Shown: positions 5,003 to 50,593 of the stretch, in pieces
Layout of the letters: each line of letters opens with the position of its first letter
Position numbering within the stretch: the stretch's first letter is position 1
DNA from: an uncultured Eggerthellaceae bacterium
Lineage (GTDB): Bacteria > Actinomycetota > Coriobacteriia > Coriobacteriales > Eggerthellaceae
Reading direction: 5' to 3'
Assembly (NCBI GenBank): GCA_947650915.1
Contig: CANSWY010000001.1
Coordinates: 1-64,000 of the forward strand
Length of the DNA: 64,000 nt
Position numbers and translations under genes: made by a program
Notes under the pieces: generated by a model
What the model was told of the DNA's origin: nothing
Database searches by the model: none
The model's input: the letters and a program-made list of their open reading frames with translations, nothing else

Positions 5003-5446
5003 GCCGCACCTCCTCTCTTCGCCCCTACATCCGTTCCGGATGCAGGCAAGCATACCTGAGACGGGCGCTCGCCACCTCTAGAACGCGCAGAAGGATCGAC
5101 TCGAATCGCACAGAGCGGAAGGTGGCTGCGGATGTGCAGAAGGGACGTCCCAAATTGCACATAGGAACAGTCTCCCAGTGCTCATTCCCTTTTCCTATGT
5201 GCAATTTGGAACGTCCCTTCTGCACATCCGCTCTTCACAGGTTCACGGGGCATCCTGGGTGGAGAAGAGCATGCCTGAGCCGTGAGTGCGAATGCGCCGC
5301 GATATGCTCATGGCAATGGAGAGATTCCGGTTTCTTGTCGGATCGGTCAAGGTTCGGCGCTTTCGGCGTGCCAGACGGCCTCCATTGTTATATGGTATGG
5401 CGCTGATGAATTGAAAGCAGCATGCTCATGATTCGGAGGATGGACG
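5003..5446. other. Gene-free divergent intergenic region
   Basis: 444 bp between the divergent MFS and SurA-like genes. It holds repeat copy 2 (5131-5228) and a fragment CGAATCGCACAGAG at 5102-5115 that matches the copy-5 subtype of the repeat. The rest (5229-5430) has no reading frame I can support. CGGAGGATGGACG precedes the ATG at 5447. Confidence 0.7.
5131..5228 (+). repeat. 98-bp palindromic intergenic repeat, copy 2
   Basis: Same length and orientation as copy 1. Both arms carry a compensating change (GCAGAAGGG on the left, CCCTTCTGC on the right), so pairing of the arms is preserved. The loop keeps GTGCTCATTCCCTTTTCC. It lies between divergent genes, so it is not acting as a 3' terminator here. 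Confidence 0.9.
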
Positions 5447-13095: not shown

Positions 13096-13125
13096 GATGT
13101 GCAAAAGGGACGTCCCAAATTGCAC
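13096..13125 (+). repeat. Half-unit (left arm) of the palindromic repeat
   Basis: A 30-bp left arm, identical in its core to copy 1 (GTGCAAAAGGGACGTCCC), 44 bp upstream of full copy 3. The 14-bp spacer CCGTGAGGTTGCCT shares GGTTGCC with the spacer at copy 1. A further truncated arm core at 13065-13081 keeps the 44-bp register. Confidence 0.85.
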
Positions 13126-13139
13126 CCGTGAGGTTGCCT

Positions 13140-13237
13140 GATGTGCAAAAGGGACGTCCTAAATTGCACATAGGAACTGTCTTTCAGTGCTCATTCTCTT
13201 ATTCTATGTGCAATTTGGAACGTCCCTTTTGCACATC
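13140..13237 (+). repeat. 98-bp palindromic intergenic repeat, copy 3
   Basis: Full element in the same orientation as copies 1, 2, 4 and 6, with loop core AGTGCTCATTCTCTTATTC. The left arm has GGGACGTCCT where other copies have GGGACGTCCC. It lies between co-directional genes. Confidence 0.9.
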
Positions 13238-17214: not shown

Positions 17215-18426
17215 ATGGCGGTGGAAAAGGAGAGTGCCCCGCAGGCCTCGGGTGCGGTCATGCATCTGGAAGAATTGTCCCAGGCCGGTCTCACCGCCAA
17301 GCAGATGGCAGCGCGTCGGCGCCTCCATCAGCAAACGGCGTTGCTGATCCAGCAAGACCGTGCGCGCAAATGCGCAGATGCGGCTTCATGCGCGAGTCCG
17401 TCTGAGGTTCTCAGCGCTGATGCCGGCCATGAGCCGGAGCTGGTCTTCTCTCCCGAAGACGCGCCCGATGGGCCGCCTTGGCGCTACGATCCCACTCCTC
17501 ATCAGCGCGCAGAGCGCGCGCAGAAGAAGGAGCGACGCGCCCATGCGCGCGAGAAGCTCAAGGACAGCGCTATCCAGAAGGCCCCTGAGAAGCTGCGGAA
17601 CCCATCGGATCTGCAGGTGCGGTTCAGGACGGGGCTCATCTACACCTTGGTCACCATCGTCTGCATGCTGGCGGGGGATTACCCCACCATGGCGTATTTC
17701 ATGGTGGTGGCGGGCATCTGTGCGGGAGAGTTCTTCTACATGCTGCGCTCTGACGCCAAGCTGCCGAATGAGGCGCTCGGCATCACCGGGGCCGTGCTGT
17801 ACGTCCCGGCGCTGTACTTCTTCGGACTGGCGGGCGCCATGGTGGTCTCCATCGCGCTCCTGCTGGCGCTTTTGGTGTGGTATGTCTTCTGGCTCAAAGC
17901 GCGCGTGCAGGACGTGGGTGTGAGCTTCTTCGGCGCTGCCTACACCGGGCTTCTTTTGGGCGGTTTCATGCTCATTCGGGAAGCGTTGGGAGACCCTTGG
18001 GGCGGCATCGCGCTCCTGGTGTTGTTCTTGAGCGTCTGGGCCAATGATGCGTTCGCGTATCTGATCGGACGCCGTTTCGGACGGCACAAGCTGGCACCGC
18101 GCACCAGTCCGAAGAAGAGCTGGGAAGGGTTCTTCGCAGGCGTGGTGGGTTCATGCGTGTTCTGGGTGGTTCTCGCCTTCGTGCCGGGCATCCAGATGGG
18201 CGTCTGGCTGGCAATTGCATTCGGCGCCGTATGTGCCATGACGGAAGTGCTGGGAGACTTGGCGGAGAGTCGGATCAAGCGCAACTCCGGTTTCAAGGAT
18301 TCAGGCACCATGATGCCAGGGCACGGAGGACTGTTGGACCGCTGCGATTCGCTCTTCATGGCTTCCATCACCTCTGCCATCTTGTTGCTGTTGGGAGGTT
18401 GCATTCCTTATGACGTCTTGCTCTGA
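17215..18426 (+). CDS. cdsA: Phosphatidate cytidylyltransferase with long N-terminal extension
   Basis: 403 aa, versus about 270 for the usual enzyme. Residues 1-135 form a charged, Ala/Arg/Lys-rich cytoplasmic region (for example RAQKKERRAHAREKLKD) with no recognised domain. About seven TM segments follow. The CdsA signature appears as GDLAESRIKRNSGFKDSG, then GHGGLLDRCDS, with SPKKSWEGFFAG before it. It converts phosphatidic acid plus CTP to CDP-diacylglycerol. It overlaps dxr by 17 bp. Confidence 0.94.
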   Translation: MAVEKESAPQASGAVMHLEELSQAGLTAKQMAARRRLHQQTALLIQQDRARKCADAASCASPSEVLSADAGHEPELVFSPEDAPDGPPWRYDPTPHQRAERAQKKERRAHAREKLKDSAIQKAPEKLRNPSDLQVRFRTGLIYTLVTIVCMLAGDYPTMAYFMVVAGICAGEFFYMLRSDAKLPNEALGITGAVLYVPALYFFGLAGAMVVSIALLLALLVWYVFWLKARVQDVGVSFFGAAYTGLLLGGFMLIREALGDPWGGIALLVLFLSVWANDAFAYLIGRRFGRHKLAPRTSPKKSWEGFFAGVVGSCVFWVVLAFVPGIQMGVWLAIAFGAVCAMTEVLGDLAESRIKRNSGFKDSGTMMPGHGGLLDRCDSLFMASITSAILLLLGGCIPYDVLL

Positions 18427-19540
18427 CGCAGCCGCATCATCTTCGTCCGCACCGCGCAAGATCGTGGTGCTGGGTTCCACCGGCTCCATCGGGCGGCAGA
18501 CGCTGGAAGTGGCCGCCATGCATCCCGACAAGCTGGAGGTGGTGGGGCTCTCATGCCATCGGAACACTGCGCTCATGGAAGAACAGGCGGCGCGCTTCGG
18601 CGTGCGCCATACGGCGGTGGGCGCAGAAGAGGCGCTGGAGCTGGTCCATCTGGACGAGGCTGAGGTGGTGGTGAATGCGCTGGTGGGGGCTGCGGGCCTC
18701 AGGGCCAGCGTTGAGACGCTCTCATTCGGACGTGTGCTGGCATTGGCGAACAAAGAGTCCCTCGTGGTGGGCGGCGACCTCATCATGCCGCTGGCAGATG
18801 CGCCAGGGCGCTTGATGCCCGTGGACTCCGAACACGGTGCCATCTACCAATGCCTGGTGGGGGAAGACGCGCGCGAGGTCAGCCGGTTGTGGGTGACGGC
18901 ATCGGGCGGTCCGTTCCGGGGCAAGACGCGCGAAGAGCTTGCGCGCGTGACGGCAGCGGATGCGCTGGCGCATCCCACATGGAACATGGGGCGCAAGATC
19001 ACCATTGATTCATCCACCCTCATGAACAAGGGTCTGGAGGTCATAGAGGCGCATCATCTCTTCCAAATGCCCTATGAGCGCATCGAGGTGCTGGTGCAGC
19101 CTCAGAGCGCCATCCATTCCATGGTGGAATTCACGGACGGTTCCGTGAAGGCGCATCTGGGCGCCACGGACATGCGCATCCCCATCCAGTACGCCCTCAG
19201 CTGGCCGGAGCGCTGGCCTTCTCCTGCGGAACATGTTGATTTTCGCACCATGGGTCCTTTAGGGTTGGGCGCGCCGGACACGGCTGCGTTCAGGTGCCTC
19301 GATCTTGCCATCTCTGCGGGGAAGACGGGTGGGACGATGCCCGCGGCCATGAATGCAGCGAATGAAGTGGCCGTTGCCGCGTTCCTTGAAGGTGTGTGCG
19401 GTTTCCTTGACATCGAGGGCACCATCCAGCATGTGATGGAGCATCACGCACCGCAAGAGGTGCGTTCCCTTGAACAGCTCGAAGCGGTGGATGCCGAAGC
19501 ACGGACGCGCGCTGAAGAGCATCTAGCGCGCGTCCGTTGA
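18410..19540 (+). CDS. dxr: 1-deoxy-D-xylulose 5-phosphate reductoisomerase
   Basis: 376 aa, slightly short against the usual 380-400. The NADPH fold starts IVVLGSTGSIGRQTLE, with LALANKESLVVGG, PVDSEHGAIYQCL (substrate/metal loop), TASGGPFRGKT and HPTWNMGRKITIDSSTLMNK (split: WNMGRKITIDSSTLMNK). The C-terminus has AANEVAVAAFL. It carries out the second step of the MEP isoprenoid pathway; ispG of the same pathway is at 29979. Only 12 bases separate its stop from the convergent surface operon. Confidence 0.96.
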   Translation: MTSCSDAAASSSSAPRKIVVLGSTGSIGRQTLEVAAMHPDKLEVVGLSCHRNTALMEEQAARFGVRHTAVGAEEALELVHLDEAEVVVNALVGAAGLRASVETLSFGRVLALANKESLVVGGDLIMPLADAPGRLMPVDSEHGAIYQCLVGEDAREVSRLWVTASGGPFRGKTREELARVTAADALAHPTWNMGRKITIDSSTLMNKGLEVIEAHHLFQMPYERIEVLVQPQSAIHSMVEFTDGSVKAHLGATDMRIPIQYALSWPERWPSPAEHVDFRTMGPLGLGAPDTAAFRCLDLAISAGKTGGTMPAAMNAANEVAVAAFLEGVCGFLDIEGTIQHVMEHHAPQEVRSLEQLEAVDAEARTRAEEHLARVR

Positions 19541-22725: not shown

Positions 22726-23373
22726 TCATGCGTTCGCGGTGACGCTCAGGCGCGCTTGCGCGTCGTAGGCGGTGCAGGCTTCCGTCGCGTTCGCGAAGCC
22801 TTCGGATTGGATGGCGTGGGCGGTGACGTCTATGGTCGTCTCAGAGATGCCCACGTCCTCGGTCAGATTCGCAAGGGTGACCGCATCGAAGACGCTCGGG
22901 GTCTTCGCTCCCGCTGCCAGTTCCGCATCGTAGACGTAGCGGTAGGTGCGGAACCCGTCGGCCAGCTGGGCCTCTCCGATCTGCTTCCAGCCGCTGTTCA
23001 CCGTGTAGGAGAACAGGTCGGCGTCGGTCAGCTCAGCTGCTGCTCCGTCCTTGATGGCGCCTCCCGAGAACACGGGCACTTTCACGTCGGCGGCCACATA
23101 GGCCGGCACGCTGCCCGTGTTCGCGATCGTGGGATCCTTCGCCACGGATTGGAGCGGCTTCAGGTCCTTGGCGGCAGCGGCTGAGAAAGACGGCTCTGTG
23201 AGCTCGATCTTCAGGTCCGTGTCGAGCGTGAATGGATTCTCGGCTGTCGCGATGCCGGTGAGGTAGGCTGCGGCCGCACCTGCACCGATCGTGCAGGCCA
23301 ACAACCCGCACGCGGCAGCGGCGCCGATCCTCTTCATGCTTCTTTCAGGTGCGGTTCCGGTCTGTTCGGACAT
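22726..23373 (-). CDS. TasA/camelysin-like SipW-dependent subunit
   Basis: 215 aa from the ATG at 23373 (AAAGGAA 6 bases upstream), a start inside the end of the signal peptidase gene (40-bp overlap). The hydrophobic segment GAAAACGLLACTIGAGAAAA is followed by YLTGIATAENPFTLDTDLKI, the TasA-family pattern (…A-Y-x-T-x-x-A-x-x-N-x-F-T). The mature region has KDPTIANTGSVPAYVAADV and KVPVFSGGAI, matching the beta-rich TasA fold. It is probably the major fibre or matrix subunit exported by the adjacent SipW-type peptidase (inference from the family). Confidence 0.8.
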   Translation of the reverse strand: MSEQTGTAPERSMKRIGAAAACGLLACTIGAGAAAAYLTGIATAENPFTLDTDLKIELTEPSFSAAAAKDLKPLQSVAKDPTIANTGSVPAYVAADVKVPVFSGGAIKDGAAAELTDADLFSYTVNSGWKQIGEAQLADGFRTYRYVYDAELAAGAKTPSVFDAVTLANLTEDVGISETTIDVTAHAIQSEGFANATEACTAYDAQARLSVTANA

Positions 23374-23903
23374 GCTGTTCCTTTCTCTTCTGGTCTTGTG
23401 GCGATGTTCTGTGGCGATGCGAACGAGAGCGCGGCGGCTGCCAGCGCCAATGCGATGGCCACGCCCGCGCAGGGCAGGCGATTCTCCTCCAGCCAAGCGA
23501 TGGACCAGCCTGCATAGGGCACGTGGGCGCAGACGACGCCGATGATGTCCTCGAAGGGGACGAGCCTGATGTCAGGTTCGTCGTTCGCGTCCCCTTTCGT
23601 TTGGATGAGCCCTCCTTCCTGATAGATGTCCTGCGTTCTATGCACACAGACGTTCTCGTCTGCATCGCCTATGCGGAAGGCGGCGACATCGCCGATCCTG
23701 AGGTCTTCGCCATGGATGCTCCCATCCACGATGGCCAGCGATCCGAGCGGGATGCCGGGAGCCATGGAGGATGATTTGACGATGTAGGTGCTGCAGCCGA
23801 ACAGGGTTGGGATGAATGTGAGCGCTCCCAGCATCAGGGCGGCTGCAGCCATCGTTGCGAGGGCGGCGTTGAGCGCCTGTGAAACGAACCGTTCCGCTCT
23901 CAT
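23334..23903 (-). CDS. sipW: SipW-type (ER-type) signal peptidase I
   Basis: 189 aa. An N-terminal TM (about 10-35) precedes the catalytic motif VKSSSMAPGIPLG, with nucleophile Ser46. The general base is a histidine, His88 (VCVHRTQDI), rather than the lysine of the common bacterial enzyme, and TKGDANDEPD carries the conserved Gly-Asp box. These are the marks of the SipW/archaeal/ER class. A second TM (about 145-165) follows. In known systems SipW processes TasA-like subunits. Its ATG overlaps the VaFE gene stop by 4 bp. Confidence 0.88.
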   Translation of the reverse strand: MRAERFVSQALNAALATMAAAALMLGALTFIPTLFGCSTYIVKSSSMAPGIPLGSLAIVDGSIHGEDLRIGDVAAFRIGDADENVCVHRTQDIYQEGGLIQTKGDANDEPDIRLVPFEDIIGVVCAHVPYAGWSIAWLEENRLPCAGVAIALALAAAALSFASPQNIATRPEEKGTACPNRPEPHLKEA

Positions 23904-26900
23904 CGCGCACCTCCTGTCCGCGCGCCGGTCGGCTCGCTTTGGCGTTCACGCCTCTTGTGCATCCAGATGGCCCAGGCCCCGCCCAGTGCTGCTGCGGCGC
24001 AGGCTGCGAGCGCGTGGGGCCACGGCGCATCGTCACCGGTCTGGGGGAGAGTGGTGAGCGATCGGGGTTCGCGGACCGGGCCAGAGTCCCCGATCCAAAT
24101 GGTCTGGCTCTCAGCGGCCGCGTCCTCATGCATGGCCACCACCTCTCCCTCGGCTGTCAGCCGCTCGAAGATGACGAGCCGCGCTCCATCAAGGCCAGAG
24201 GCATCCACATGGAAATCGAGGAAGGTGCTGCCCGACGAGCTTCCAGGTGCGAACTGCGCCGTTGCGCTCACCTTGTTGCCAGCGTGGTCCAGAAGTGGTT
24301 CAGCGGTGATGTGGCCGCCTTCTCCCTCGGTGGCGCGCATGACCGTTCCGAACAATGAATAGGTCTTGCCTGCCACCAGGTTCTCGTAGCGCACCTCATC
24401 GGTGATGGTGAGGTCGGCCTTCGCATCCGTGGCGTTCAGCCCGCTCTGCTCATCGAATGCGCTCGTGCTGATGCGCGGAGCGGCGATCCTCACGGTCTGG
24501 GCGTCGTTGTCCGGGCTGTCATGCACGACCAGCTCGCATCCGTCACGGAAAAGCGTCTCGTACACCACCAGTTCCGTGCCATCCGCCATGCTCGTCGGCG
24601 CGAAGGTGAAGGTCACGGAAGTGTTGCCTGTGTTGGAGAGCGGCGTGAACGGGACGGTGCAGGTGAGCGGCGTCCCTTCTTCGTCGAGGACGGCTTCCGC
24701 GCTGGGTGCGTCTTCGGTGCCCGTCTTGTGCATCAGCTGTCCGCGCAGCACGTATTCGGCGCCTTCTTCCAGGCCGCTGTAGGCCACAGCGTCCACGATC
24801 GTCACGGCATCCTGCGCGATGGCTTCCTTGCTATCCGTTGCAGCGTCTGTGGCATAGGTGTTGATGGCGGGTGCCACCACCTCGACGCTCTGTCCGTGGT
24901 CATCCAGCTCCTCATGGGATGCCACGATCTTGCCTGTGGCCGTTTCCATCACCTCTTCGAAGCAGACGAGCCGCTTTCCGAAGAGCGTGGAGGCATCGAA
25001 AGCGAACGATACCTCGCAGCTGCCCGAGGAGGACACCGGCGTGAACGTGAGTTCAGTGGTGATGGCCTCTCCGGCGGCGTCCGTCGCCTCTGAGGCGGTC
25101 TCGGCATCCATCAGGCGCCCGCAGATCCGGTATTCCGTGCCCGGCACCAGATTGCAGTAGTCGATTCGGTCGGTCACGCGGACATCGCGGTTCGGATAAA
25201 GATGCTTGGAGGCGTCATGGGCGCTGCGCGCTTGCGTGACGATGGCGGGAGGAGGCGTCACGCGGTCCTCTATGTCTCCCAAGGGGATGCTGAGGCCGTG
25301 GGCGGTGACGCTGATGCCTTCCATGCTGATGAGGTCCAGCCCTGCGTTCGAATCAGCGCGCAGCTCTGTCAGGGCGTAGGCGTCATAGGGGAGTGCTCCC
25401 AGCGCGTCGTCGGGCGCGGTCATGCTGCCATCCGGTGCAAGGCCGAACCAGATGCCGGCGTTCGGATCCAGTTGTGCGGAATCCACCGCTTCTTCCGGGA
25501 CGTCGGCTGACGCCATGGCCCAATCGTTCGCGTTCGCATCCTGGGTGTGCGCGTGCCACGCAGCGGAGGTGTTCACGATGCCGTTCTCGTCGGTCACCAG
25601 CACATGGCGCTCACCAGTGGTCAGGGATTCCAGGATGAAGGGGATGCGCGCCAAACGACTCTGATCGGTCTGGAGCACTTTGCGGAAATCCAGGTCTCCG
25701 CGCTTCACTTGATCGTGACAGGCGCTGATGCCGTCCAGCGTCACCATCTCGCCATCGCGGGTGATGCTGAACGTGCGCGCTTCCGTGTCGTTCGCCAAGT
25801 ATCCGGTTCCCGCAGCCACTTCTTGGATCTCATAGGTGCCGAAGGGGAGCGTCTCGGTCGACGTGCACGCGCTTCCGCCTTCGGAGACGATGCGGGCCAC
25901 CACTTCTCCCGGCGCGCGCATGACACCGTCCACGCAGACTGCCTGCGCGCTCACGTTGCGGATCTGGAACGCGGTGCCGTCAAGGGATGCTGCGCCCAAG
26001 GGATCGGTGAGGCCGCTCTCCGCATCCCGCTTCACGATGGTCACGCCACCGCGCATGATGTCCTCGGGCACGGTGCTCACCATCGTGTACGTGATGCTCT
26101 CAGCGGTGCCGGAGGCGGGAAGCGCGATCACGCGCAGACGAGAGTCGATGCGGTAGCCTTCAGGAGCGGACACTTCGCGGAGGGTGAGGGTTCCCAGTGG
26201 CAAACAGGGCGCTCCTGCCGTCGTGCGATAGAGCGCATCCCCTGAGACCAGGTGGTCCTCATCCAGCTTGATGCATCCGCCAGCATCCGTCGCGAAGCGC
26301 CAGATCCGGGCAGGGGTGCATCCCGCCGCGCTTCCCTCGTCCGTGAACAGCTCTTGATAATGGCGTGCTTCGAACACGGCGCCTTCCAGCACCCCGTCAC
26401 CTTGCGGGGTGGAGTTCGCGGTCACTGAATCGCATTTGCGGAGCAGCACCTCTGCTGCGTAGCTCTGGGGCGCATCGCTCACGGCCAGGGCGGATGTCTC
26501 TCCAGCACGCACGGTCACGGCATGTGCGGCGCTGTCATAGGTGAAGCCAGAACCCAAGGTGGACCCTGCGTTCTCGCGGATGTAGTAGGTGCCGTCCTTC
26601 AGGCGCTTGGAGGTGCCGCGTCCATCTGCTCCCAGCGTGATGGAGCAGACATGCGCGGTGCATGCAGCATCTGAGAACACATCGTATGTGATGCCCTCGA
26701 GCCGATAGTTCGGGTTGTTCGCACTCGTGTCTGGGACCGAAGATGATTTCACCACCTCTATGTCTCCGGACGGAAGTATCTCGAACTTGTAGATTCCCAC
26801 GCCGGGCTGGTTCGCGATGGAAGGGCCGACGAAGCCGATGACCACATAGGGTCGGGCTGCTTCAGTGTTGACGTCCAAGATGCGCAGTGCCATCCGTCCT

Positions 26901-28360
26901 TTGGAGCCGTCGGAGGGCATGATCCCAATGGGGTTCTTCACATGGCTGCATTGCAGACCGAGCTGCGTGTAATCGTGCCCGTAGTTGTAGGGGTTGGTGA
27001 TGGGCCACCTCTCTGAGTGGAAGGACTGGTCTTCCAGTTGGTAATCGCCGAAGTCGAAGGAGTAATTGAAGTAGTCACGGGATTCCTGGGTGCCTCCAGG
27101 GTTCACGACGAAAGTGCCCACATCGTGCGCTGAGACGCCGTTCCAATCCGCGCCGGAGGACCAAGCGAGGTATTCGTAGAGGCTGTTGGGGTCGCTCTTC
27201 CATGAGTAGCAGTACGCGCCCGTGTTCACGCAGGCGTGCCATGAGAGGTCAGGCGGGTTCGGCCACCAGTAATCGGCCTTGGTCATGAACTCTATCTTGC
27301 GTCCGGGCGTCAGCGTTTCCAGGTTCAAGCTGTCGAACACCACTTCCGGCACGTAGGCGAGGGATGAGGTGGAGGCAGCCTGCGCCGGTTCGGCGAACAG
27401 CTCCAGGAGCGACGGCGCATCGCAGCTCACATCCGCGCGCAGCACCGTTTGCGGAGATGCTGATATCTCCAGCATCCCTGTCGCGGTGTCCCAGACGGCG
27501 TTCTCTCCTTCGACGAGCTCCATCTCTTCATCGCTGCCGTTCAGGCGTACGTGGATGTCGGAGAGCGCAAGATGCCCCGCGGTCTCAGGCGTGGCGACGG
27601 GAATGGTGGTGGTCACATCAAAGGTGGAGGAAGAGATAGTTCGATCGCCCATCACCTTTACGCGCGGGTCTGCTGAACTGATGGAGACATCAGTGAGACA
27701 TGGATCGCTGTCCTCCAGTTCAGCAGGAATGAGGAGCTGCAGCTGGCATGCGAAGGGGATGTCTTGACCATCTTGTAGATAGAAGCTCTTAGGCACATAG
27801 GCGATGCCGCTCTCTGCATCGAATCGGCAGCCGTCCAGCACATCGCCTTCGTTGGTCATGAGAGCGAAGACATGGTCGGTCGCCGTGCCTGTTCCGTTCA
27901 GCGACGAGGGGGCCGCCAGCGCCACATAGAAGCCAGAATCGGGGCCGGGGTCCAGCAGGTCTGCGCTCGATGCGTATTGCCCCGCGATGATGGACATCCA
28001 GTCTTCACGCGCATAGATGGCATCCATCGTGCGATCGGGTCCTGCGATCGCGGCATCGAAGAGCGTGCTCTTGACGTAAAGGGTGTGCCCGCTGTCCTGG
28101 AACGCGGAGAGATCTTGCCCGAAGAGGCCTGCGATGAACGAGAGCGCAGGCGCCGGCTCATCCACCGGTGCAGCGACTTGATCCACTGCTCCTGCAAGGT
28201 GGTCGTTTCTCAGTTCATAGGCGAAGCGGTGTTCCGGGTCTTCCTCTTCAGGCGGCCTGTCGGCCCAAGCCTGGACGGGCGAGAGTGCCAGGCTGAGCGT
28301 GAGCGCTGCTTTCAGGATCGTGCTCCGTGCGCGTTGCGTTGCCGATGCTGTTCGTGCCAT
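23900..28360 (-). CDS. Giant VaFE-repeat LPQTG surface protein (SpaA/Cna-B domains)
   Basis: 1486 aa. The signal peptide ends near PVQAWA (about 33). A large N-terminal domain (about 35-560) is unlike anything I can name. Several Cna-B/SpaA-type beta domains follow, with isopeptide-type Lys motifs such as VTIVKRDAESG and DLDFRKVLQTD and partner Glu segments (TLREVSAPEGY, YEIQEVAAGTGY). Then come three VaFE repeats (about 1065-1425), recognised by KRLVCFEEV, TELVVYETL and ARLVIFERL. The wall-sorting signal LPQTG (1438-1442), a hydrophobic stretch and HKRRER end the protein. First gene of the surface operon; AAGGAGG precedes the ATG. A sortase must act on it, but none is in the window. Confidence 0.88.
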   Translation of the reverse strand: MARTASATQRARSTILKAALTLSLALSPVQAWADRPPEEEDPEHRFAYELRNDHLAGAVDQVAAPVDEPAPALSFIAGLFGQDLSAFQDSGHTLYVKSTLFDAAIAGPDRTMDAIYAREDWMSIIAGQYASSADLLDPGPDSGFYVALAAPSSLNGTGTATDHVFALMTNEGDVLDGCRFDAESGIAYVPKSFYLQDGQDIPFACQLQLLIPAELEDSDPCLTDVSISSADPRVKVMGDRTISSSTFDVTTTIPVATPETAGHLALSDIHVRLNGSDEEMELVEGENAVWDTATGMLEISASPQTVLRADVSCDAPSLLELFAEPAQAASTSSLAYVPEVVFDSLNLETLTPGRKIEFMTKADYWWPNPPDLSWHACVNTGAYCYSWKSDPNSLYEYLAWSSGADWNGVSAHDVGTFVVNPGGTQESRDYFNYSFDFGDYQLEDQSFHSERWPITNPYNYGHDYTQLGLQCSHVKNPIGIMPSDGSKGRMALRILDVNTEAARPYVVIGFVGPSIANQPGVGIYKFEILPSGDIEVVKSSSVPDTSANNPNYRLEGITYDVFSDAACTAHVCSITLGADGRGTSKRLKDGTYYIRENAGSTLGSGFTYDSAAHAVTVRAGETSALAVSDAPQSYAAEVLLRKCDSVTANSTPQGDGVLEGAVFEARHYQELFTDEGSAAGCTPARIWRFATDAGGCIKLDEDHLVSGDALYRTTAGAPCLPLGTLTLREVSAPEGYRIDSRLRVIALPASGTAESITYTMVSTVPEDIMRGGVTIVKRDAESGLTDPLGAASLDGTAFQIRNVSAQAVCVDGVMRAPGEVVARIVSEGGSACTSTETLPFGTYEIQEVAAGTGYLANDTEARTFSITRDGEMVTLDGISACHDQVKRGDLDFRKVLQTDQSRLARIPFILESLTTGERHVLVTDENGIVNTSAAWHAHTQDANANDWAMASADVPEEAVDSAQLDPNAGIWFGLAPDGSMTAPDDALGALPYDAYALTELRADSNAGLDLISMEGISVTAHGLSIPLGDIEDRVTPPPAIVTQARSAHDASKHLYPNRDVRVTDRIDYCNLVPGTEYRICGRLMDAETASEATDAAGEAITTELTFTPVSSSGSCEVSFAFDASTLFGKRLVCFEEVMETATGKIVASHEELDDHGQSVEVVAPAINTYATDAATDSKEAIAQDAVTIVDAVAYSGLEEGAEYVLRGQLMHKTGTEDAPSAEAVLDEEGTPLTCTVPFTPLSNTGNTSVTFTFAPTSMADGTELVVYETLFRDGCELVVHDSPDNDAQTVRIAAPRISTSAFDEQSGLNATDAKADLTITDEVRYENLVAGKTYSLFGTVMRATEGEGGHITAEPLLDHAGNKVSATAQFAPGSSSGSTFLDFHVDASGLDGARLVIFERLTAEGEVVAMHEDAAAESQTIWIGDSGPVREPRSLTTLPQTGDDAPWPHALAACAAAALGGAWAIWMHKRRERQSEPTGARTGGAR

Positions 28361-28636: not shown

Positions 28637-29743
28637 TTGGACATCCTGTTCATGGTCTTTTCCGCCGTCATCGCCATCGGTTTCATCGTGCTCATCCATG
28701 AAGGCGGCCATTACCTGGCCTCTCGGGCCTTCGGCGTCCGCGTGACCGAGTTCATGCTGGGTCTGCCCGGTCCTTCGGTGGGCTTCACGGCTGGAGGCAC
28801 GCGGTTCGGCGTGACAGCGGTTCCTCTTGGTGGATATGCGCGCGTGTGCGGCATGGAGGGCGGTGGGATAAGCCCTCATGCGCGCGGTGCATTGCGCGAG
28901 GCCTATGAGCGCGGCTCGGTCACCGAAGAAGAATTGGCGGATGCCCTGGGTATCACGGAAGAGGAGGCTTTCGAAGCGCTCGATCAACTGGCCGAATGGG
29001 GGTCGATCATCCGTCCGGAGCGCAAGGATGACCGCCAGGCCTGGAAGACGCCGGCCGTCGCGCCTTCCGCTCGGGCGCGCAAGCAGGCAAAGCGCCTGGG
29101 GATGCCGGCGCCGCTGCAACTGGAGGCGGGCATGCCGCGCCATGTTCCTGACTTGGACGCGTTCTATGAACGGGAGCTCTCTTGCCAGTACCGTTCGTTG
29201 CCGTTCTGGAAGCGCTCGGTCATCCTGCTGGCGGGCATCGGCGTGAACCTCGCGTTCGCGCTCATCGCCTTCGTGGTGGTGTATGCGGTCATCGGCGTTG
29301 ACTATGCCATCCCCTCCACGGGCGAGGTGCAGCACCTCACGCTCACGCCCTTGCAGGCCATCCAGGCGGGCATCGGAGCCATCGTGGCCACCTTCCAAGC
29401 CATCTTGGGGCTCTTCAATCCGGCCACGGCGGGGGAGGTGGTGTCGAACTCCTCCAGTGTGATCGGCATCGCGGTCATGTCCGCGGATTTCTTCGCGAAG
29501 GGCGTGGCTGACGCGCTCTTCTTCATGGCTGTCATCTCCATTTCCATCGGCCTCATGAACCTGCTCCCCATCCCGCCTTTGGATGGCGGCCGCTTCTTGG
29601 TGGAGATCATCCAGAAGGTCACGCGGCGCACCGTGCCTGCGCGCGTGATGGGCGCGGTCTCCATGGCGGGCATGGCGCTGTTCCTGTGCTTCTTCGTCTT
29701 CATGCTGAACCAGGACATCCAGCGCTTCATCCTCGGCGGCTGA
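28637..29743 (+). CDS. rseP: RseP-like site-2 protease without PDZ domain
   Basis: 368 aa. The TTG start is supported by GAAGGAGGG at the right distance. TM1 has the zinc motif HEGGH (His21, His25), and the distal motif NLLPIPPLDGG supplies the third ligand, so the active site is intact. The loop after FGVTAVPLGGYARVCGMEGG holds a roughly 100-residue insertion whose centre, VTEEELADALGITEEEAFEA, reads like a winged helix-turn-helix. No PDZ domain lies between TM2 (VILLAGIGVNLAFALIAFV) and the LDG helix. It cleaves membrane proteins within the bilayer; the target is unknown. Confidence 0.88.
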   Translation: MDILFMVFSAVIAIGFIVLIHEGGHYLASRAFGVRVTEFMLGLPGPSVGFTAGGTRFGVTAVPLGGYARVCGMEGGGISPHARGALREAYERGSVTEEELADALGITEEEAFEALDQLAEWGSIIRPERKDDRQAWKTPAVAPSARARKQAKRLGMPAPLQLEAGMPRHVPDLDAFYERELSCQYRSLPFWKRSVILLAGIGVNLAFALIAFVVVYAVIGVDYAIPSTGEVQHLTLTPLQAIQAGIGAIVATFQAILGLFNPATAGEVVSNSSSVIGIAVMSADFFAKGVADALFFMAVISISIGLMNLLPIPPLDGGRFLVEIIQKVTRRTVPARVMGAVSMAGMALFLCFFVFMLNQDIQRFILGG

Positions 29744-29755
29744 CCCTCGCTCCCC

Positions 29756-29784
29756 ATGTGCGAAAGGGACGTCCCAAATCGCAC
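29756..29784 (+). repeat. Half-unit (left arm) of the palindromic repeat
   Basis: A left arm with GTGCGAAAGGGACGTCCC, 13 bases after the rseP stop. Its GACGTCCC core is exactly 44 bp upstream of the core in full copy 4. Confidence 0.85.
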
Positions 29785-29798
29785 AGGCGGACATGCAA

Positions 29799-29896
29799 GA
29801 TGTGCGAAAGGGACGTCCCAAATTGCACATAGGATCAGCCATCCAGTGCTCATTCTCTATTCCTATGTGCGATTTGGAACGTCCCTTTTGCACATC
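29799..29896 (+). repeat. 98-bp palindromic intergenic repeat, copy 4
   Basis: Full element, same orientation as copies 1-3 and 6. Both arms have a G in the flank (GTGCGAAAGG left; GTGCGATTTGG right), and the loop core is CAGTGCTCATTCTCTATTCC. It lies between co-directional rseP and ispG, upstream of the candidate ispG promoter. Confidence 0.9.
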
Positions 29897-43190: not shown

Positions 43191-43290
43191 CAAGTGCAAA
43201 AGGGACGTGTCCCAAATCGCACAGAGGAATAGCGCGTCTCAGCAGGTTCTCTTCTCCTCTGTGCAATTTGGGACGTCCCTTTTGCACTTG
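43191..43290 (+). repeat. Palindromic intergenic repeat, copy 5 (divergent subtype)
   Basis: 100 bp, with arms starting CAAGTGCAAAAGG and ending CCTTTTGCACTTG. The left core is GGGACGTGTCCC (2 bp longer than other copies) and the right core GGGACGTCCC. The inner arm border is CAGAGG/CCTCTG instead of ATAGG/CCTAT, and the loop is unrelated to the other copies. A second subtype of the same family. Confidence 0.85.
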
Positions 43291-50495: not shown

Positions 50496-50593
50496 GATGT
50501 GCAAAAGGGACGTCCCAAATCGCACATAGGATCAGTCTTTCATTGCTCATTCTCTTTTCCTATGTGCAATTTGGAACGTCCCTTTTGCACATC
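50496..50593 (+). repeat. 98-bp palindromic intergenic repeat, copy 6
   Basis: Full element in the same orientation as copies 1-4; loop core CATTGCTCATTCTCTTTTCC. It lies 36 bases after the tsaBD fusion stop and 49 before the end of the convergent menG, so it could act as a bidirectional transcript end here. No half-unit precedes it. Confidence 0.9.

Follow-up and report, generated by a model that had tools for sequence, protein, structure and literature searches.

An Eggerthellaceae operon that pairs SipW and a BsaA/TasA-like subunit with a giant VaFE surface protein

We analyzed a 64-kb stretch of DNA (the window) on contig C1 of an uncultured Eggerthellaceae bacterium, whose genome is 1.98 Mb in 50 contigs. 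On the minus strand of the window, four genes lie in series and encode a giant VaFE surface protein, a SipW signal peptidase, a 215-aa secreted BsaA/TasA-like subunit, and a leucine-rich-repeat (LRR) protein. On balance, we favor reading them as a single surface-appendage operon, in which SipW would export the subunit of a fiber, the LRR protein would be an accessory, and VaFE would be the wall anchor. The first-pass annotation had described only three of these genes; the LRR gene, which begins 17 bp past the 215-aa gene, extends that description. A functional link between SipW and VaFE is supported chiefly by their translational coupling and by the way SipW/TasA-like genes are paired time and again with sortase substrates.

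The operon and its products

The VaFE/sipW, sipW/215-aa, and 215-aa/LRR junctions measure −4, −40, and +17 bp. The VaFE stop and the sipW start share an ATGA at 23900-23903, and sipW shares the stretch 23334-23373 with the 215-aa gene. The sister species (genome G074, locus L042) has the same four genes, with VaFE running to 9418 and sipW from 9415, and sipW running to 9984 and the subunit gene from 9945; both overlaps (4 and 40 bp) are kept there, which supports the tight co-expression proposed in the first-pass annotation, whose three overlapping open reading frames (ORFs) all lie where it had placed them. The 215-aa gene starts in a Shine-Dalgarno-like context (AGAAAGGAA-AGC-ATG) that is also kept in the sister species, whose orthologue is 72% identical. 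We considered a shorter start at the in-frame ATG at 23337, which would form an ATGA overlap with the sipW stop, and rejected it because this codon is CTG in the sister species; the longer start is thus the conserved one. The GC content and the GC content at third codon positions of the operon are ordinary, with no foreign composition. Promoter and terminator scans of the operon did no better than chance, and a contig-level scan for relatives returned the sister species only.

The predicted signal peptidase passed the TIGR02228 cut-off (73.3 against 51.85 bits) and did not reach that of the Bacillus SipW equivalog NF046067 (54.5 against 190 bits). Ser46, Met47, Pro49, and His88 are invariant in 16 of 16 relatives, and Asp111 is present in 15 of them. 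The Ser/His dyad assigned from the window alone is therefore a conserved one, and the alignment indicates a Ser/His architecture of the endoplasmic reticulum (ER) type rather than a Ser-Lys enzyme.

We trained a SipW-signal profile on relatives, leaving out the window and the sister species, and by this independent profile the 215-aa protein scored E 1.4e-6 (AYFTxxDxxxN-type), in agreement with the SipW-type signal first read from its sequence; TIGR04088 was not matched by this protein. Among the 26 aligned members of its family, 16 matched the SipW-cognate signal model. The BsaA family model TIGR04090 gave 26 bits for the 215-aa protein, below the curated cut-off of 60 bits, and was matched by 24/26 family members at E ≤ 0.01 (best relatives 2.5e-12). 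The TasA/camelysin family PF12389 gave 17.6 bits (E 0.0035; gathering score 22.5) and was matched by 11/26 members (best 5e-7). The TasA equivalog NF046066 did not match the 215-aa protein and matched one of the 26 relatives at E 0.002. TasA itself, with its sequence checked against 8AUR/5OF1, scored 129 bits with PF12389 and matched the BsaA model at 2e-4. These matches make a real but distant tie to TasA, and the profiles place the subunit in the BsaA/TasA/camelysin superfamily, apparently nearer to Clostridium perfringens BsaA than to TasA, as a distant BsaA-family relative rather than a certified member. The "TasA-like" label thus held in part, as a distant superfamily tie, and a closer resemblance did not emerge: scores stayed below curated cut-offs, hhalign of the subunit profile against TasA gave 2% probability over a 21-column motif only, and the 26-member profile had no significant match among PDB sequences. 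The structural check for a TasA fold, as set beforehand, returned a confident beta-sandwich, with TasA (5OF1, 8AUR) outside the top 50 Foldseek matches. In this AlphaFold2 model, built on the 26-sequence alignment, the beta-sandwich is followed by a C-terminal helix (mean predicted local distance difference test [pLDDT] 82; ≥90 for 141 residues), and the mature N terminus is disordered, with residues 30-49 below 50.

VaFE combines an ordinary Sec signal, an N-terminal region of ∼500 aa, three SpaA/Cna-B domains, three VaFE (T-Q ester-bond) repeats, and an LPQTG anchor; the LPQTG, VaFE, and Cna-B parts had been proposed for it. The domain calls are far above chance (NF033903, 276 bits against a cut-off of 24). 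The ester-bond Thr and the H+8 Gln align in all three VaFE repeats, and the triad Asp (H+5) is clear in repeat 1 only; the mechanism of such ester-bond cross-links has been described (PMC12679949). The ∼500-aa region is common to a few Eggerthellaceae only and was modeled by AlphaFold with a mean pLDDT of 48, too low for the model to be of use.

No sorting motif was found in the LRR protein. The SipW-signal profile recognized the LRR protein of the sister species (E 1.2e-6) and LRR proteins co-operonic with sipW and a TasA-like gene in L053 (2e-5) and L057 (4e-4). An LRR partner is tied to SipW/TasA-like genes in about nine further loci, and an LRR part is fused behind the TasA-like domain in L043, L045, L049, L050, and L051, so the LRR protein is the commonest partner of the TasA-like subunit among the loci examined. 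Some of these TasA-like/LRR fusions (L045:7401-9488, minus strand; L049:9580-11943 and L050:9995-12373, plus strand) carry a twin-arginine-like S/TRRxFxK directly ahead of the SipW-type segment, a motif order that suggests twin-arginine export combined with SipW cleavage.

Table 1. Features of the window discussed in the text
Feature	Position	Strand	Basis
Giant VaFE surface protein, 1486 aa	23900..28360	-	NF033903 276 bits; PF18202 259 bits x3; PF17802 69 bits x3
LPQTG sorting motif of VaFE, residues 1438-1442, then transmembrane segment and basic tail	24035..24049	-	
SipW/ER-type signal peptidase, 189 aa	23334..23903	-	TIGR02228 73.3 bits; Ser46/His88/Asp111
BsaA/TasA-like secreted subunit, 215 aa, SipW-type signal	22726..23373	-	TIGR04090 E 6.8e-6; signal profile E 1.4e-6; AlphaFold2
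DUF285/PARCEL LRR surface protein P0004, 1051 aa	19553..22708	-	PF03382 100 bits; TIGR02167 71 bits
dxr (presumed), flank of insertion junction	18410..19540	+	tblastn/phmmer to relatives
rseP (M50 protease), other flank	28637..29743	+	contiguous with dxr in four relatives

Sortases and anchored partners

None of the genome's three sortases is encoded in the operon; one gene each lies on C7, C2, and C12. The first-pass annotation had expected the sortase to lie elsewhere and had set a genome search as the test, and that expectation was borne out. PF04203 alone recovered one sortase and a family-specific profile added two; the count of one, which misses the class-B-like type, was superseded. The C7 enzyme (P0005) belongs to a type conserved in other genomes of the family (GESxxLQTC plus a downstream Arg), and those on C2 and C12 are class-B-like. 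Given these sortases and its LPXTG motif, transmembrane segment, and basic tail, VaFE is predicted to be a sortase-anchored protein. A non-exhaustive search for sorting-signal proteins in the genome found VaFE and a 342-aa LPQTG protein on C2.

The conserved sortase type (H-H/N-PG ... GESxxLQTC) recurs across Eggerthellaceae (L002:10424-11164, minus strand; L071, L073, L074, L075), and no NCBIfam sortase class model matched it above cut-off. Stand-alone class-B-like sortases at L131:8386-9312 and L132:8074-9168 were unmatched by PF04203, and surveys of Eggerthellaceae sortases based on that model undercount.

The TasA-like subunit gene is patchy in the family (17 of 138 genomes sampled). VaFE/T-Q ester domains are common (85 of 137), so that co-occurrence in a genome says little and adjacency says more. 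VaFE lies ahead of sipW in the window and in L042, L043, and L045 (in L045 with a 187-aa protein between the two, a relative of which accompanies VaFE in genome G011). These pairs fall into two locus types that differ in position, window/L042 and L043/L045, and that have unlike VaFE C-terminal anchors; the N terminus of the L045 VaFE also differs from the window type. Where SipW/TasA-like loci lack VaFE, its place is often taken by a small protein with a sortase anchor or by an LRR protein that SipW exports. Small proteins with a sortase signal occur in L045, L046, L047, L052, L053, and L057 (alignment A2), and in L054 with VPKTG; in L052, a class-B-like sortase lies immediately ahead of sipW. 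The recurrence of these small LPXTG-type proteins favors a wall-anchored partner in general.

Searching the window genome with the A2 profile gave no convincing match to a small anchor beyond LPXTG tails. We also rejected the idea that VaFE is a homologous substitute for the small anchor, as the anchor profile matches only its LPQTG tail. In two of the loci with a sortase signal, at L046:7062-8483 (minus strand) and L047:2012-3463 (plus strand), a single ORF has a sortase-type anchor (LGKTG/LAKTG plus a transmembrane segment) in frame with a SipW-type segment and a BsaA-like domain (in L047:2105-3460, residues 286-358 match TIGR04090 at E 6e-11). These appear to be anchor/subunit fusions or polyproteins in two species of one genus.

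The proposed fiber and its alternatives

In the reading we favor, VaFE would be exported by its ordinary Sec signal, cross-link itself through its Cna-B (isopeptide) and ester-bond domains, and be fixed to peptidoglycan via LPQTG by a sortase from outside the operon. SipW, translationally coupled to VaFE, would cleave the SipW-type signal of the 215-aa protein and probably also that of the LRR protein. As the structural model suggests, the freed and flexible N terminus of the subunit could serve as a donor strand, through which subunits would polymerize into a BsaA/TasA-like fiber, with the DUF285 LRR protein as a possible adhesive or capping accessory subunit. In favor of a fiber, sipW-bsaA of C. 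perfringens yields polymeric fibers that depend on SipW (PMC7395162). VaFE is the best candidate for a covalent wall tether, or may be a companion stalk, much as has been suggested for TapA in Bacillus, and could be physically joined to the fiber as its tip or base. More tentatively, we suggest a chimeric appendage in the full sense, a donor-strand SipW/BsaA-type fiber covalently tethered to peptidoglycan via a sortase-anchored partner and bearing a SipW-exported LRR adhesin. If true, the SipW and sortase pathways would be united in a third assembly logic, distributed across Eggerthellaceae with swappable anchors (VaFE, small LPXTG proteins, or the anchor/TasA-like fusion of L046/L047).

Several observations weigh against this reading. 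The operon of the window genus lies between rseP and a gene that we take, from general knowledge of the family, to be dxr, on the opposite strand; these two genes are contiguous in L098, L102, L104, and L105. The same junction holds a lone VaFE gene in G001, G059, and G077. In G011 (L124:7459-15916), it holds VaFE, a 162-aa transmembrane protein, a 1018-aa List_Bact_rpt protein with a DKTG signal, and a class-B-like sortase, with no sipW. The dxr–rseP junction is thus a recurrent site of surface-protein cassettes in the family. VaFE is probably its older resident, with the SipW trio joining in the window genus, an order of events that argues for modularity and makes it less likely that VaFE arose as a fiber part. 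Conversely, sipW-tasA-LRR loci without VaFE occur in several genera (e.g., L049, L050, L053, L057), so neither module needs the other; that each is used elsewhere on its own speaks most strongly against an obligate link between VaFE and SipW. The two are separable modules, brought into one operon apparently at least twice. In C. perfringens, BsaA is mostly extracellular and polymerizes without the sortase encoded next to it. As to the window proteins themselves, TasA was not among the 50 matches listed by Foldseek for the subunit model, which had no PDB match at E ≤ 0.001, and the N terminus of the LRR protein (LAFAWLADQARISN) is SipW-signal-like by eye, degenerate, and scored E 1.7 by the profile, so that the SipW-type signal of this copy seems to have decayed.

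The lone VaFE genes, the VaFE-free sipW-tasA-LRR loci, and the extracellular, sortase-independent BsaA would all fit two independent products under one promoter, with VaFE as a free adhesin and, apart from it, a BsaA/TasA-like matrix fiber with its LRR protein, the trio having been added to an older VaFE for co-regulation only. We take this possibility seriously, but consider it doubtful in view of the 4-bp translational coupling kept in two species, the VaFE–sipW adjacency in two locus types, and the frequency of a sortase-anchored partner in other SipW/TasA loci.

A reading with no fiber at all is unlikely; in it, the 215-aa protein would be a small beta-sandwich, either secreted or associated with the wall (a chaperone, enzyme, or binding module), and SipW would be its dedicated peptidase. 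The name of PF12389 comes from camelysin, which carries a protease annotation, and the top Foldseek matches, all weak, are carbohydrate-binding jelly rolls and cohesins; however, BsaA, the closest characterized family, forms filaments, TasA itself belongs to PF12389 and matches the BsaA model, and the relatives' loci have several paralogous subunits each, which suggests structural roles. We think it very improbable that a sortase polymerizes VaFE as the shaft of a pilus that the BsaA-like protein merely decorates: VaFE has Cna-B domains and the dxr–rseP cassettes of G011 and G084 retain a sortase, but the pilin motif YPK was not found in VaFE, the operon has no pilus sortase, and the genome's sortases are stand-alone class-B-like enzymes or of the conserved family-wide type.

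Relation to known systems

TasA-type and BsaA-type fibers are known from Firmicutes, and their hold on the cell is poorly understood. The parts of the window operon are each of known kinds, and we regard it as a SipW-fiber variant rather than a new category. As in C. perfringens sipW-bsaABCRSD, SipW is followed directly by a BsaA-family subunit and further secreted proteins lie downstream, and the srtB sortase gene near that operon has its parallel in the sortase of L052. Unlike it, the window operon lacks two-component genes, has the giant VaFE/LPQTG protein ahead of sipW and a DUF285 LRR protein downstream, and encodes a subunit well short of the BsaA cut-off. With Bacillus subtilis tapA-sipW-tasA, it shares the three-part logic of a partner, SipW, and a beta-sandwich subunit with a SipW-type signal. 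For TapA, a role in anchoring or nucleating TasA has been proposed; in the window, the partner is instead a predicted sortase-anchored VaFE, an LRR gene is added, and the subunit lacks specific similarity to TasA. VaFE resembles Cpe0147-type ester-bond adhesins in its three PF18202 domains, aligned ester Thr and Gln, and LPXTG anchor, and differs in its unusual N-terminal region and its coupling to sipW. The pilus-type sortase cassette of relatives (G011, L124) likewise occupies the dxr–rseP site and begins with VaFE, oriented divergently from rseP, but then encodes another sorting-signal protein and a class-B-like sortase where the window has SipW, the TasA-like subunit, and the LRR protein.

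Our literature search found no description of a SipW/TasA-like, VaFE, and LRR combination and no paper linking SipW with Eggerthella. In this Actinomycetota gut family, SipW/TasA-like loci lie repeatedly beside sortase-anchored and LRR proteins; they suggest, as a hypothesis open to direct testing, that fibers of the TasA/BsaA type may be tethered covalently, and they offer candidate surface adhesins for poorly characterized gut bacteria.

Separately, a 28-bp intergenic repeat (TGTGCAAAAGGGACGTCCCAAATTGCAC) is present in 14 copies in the window against 0 expected (130-267, 5133-5226, 13098-13235, 29757-29894, 43261-43288, and 50498-50591), in most cases with direct copies spaced 44 bp apart and an inverted copy 66 bp after them. 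L002 has 17 copies in 19 kb, L131 and L132 have 11 apiece, and 34 kb of sister-species sequence has none; this pattern points to a REP-like, species-specific element.

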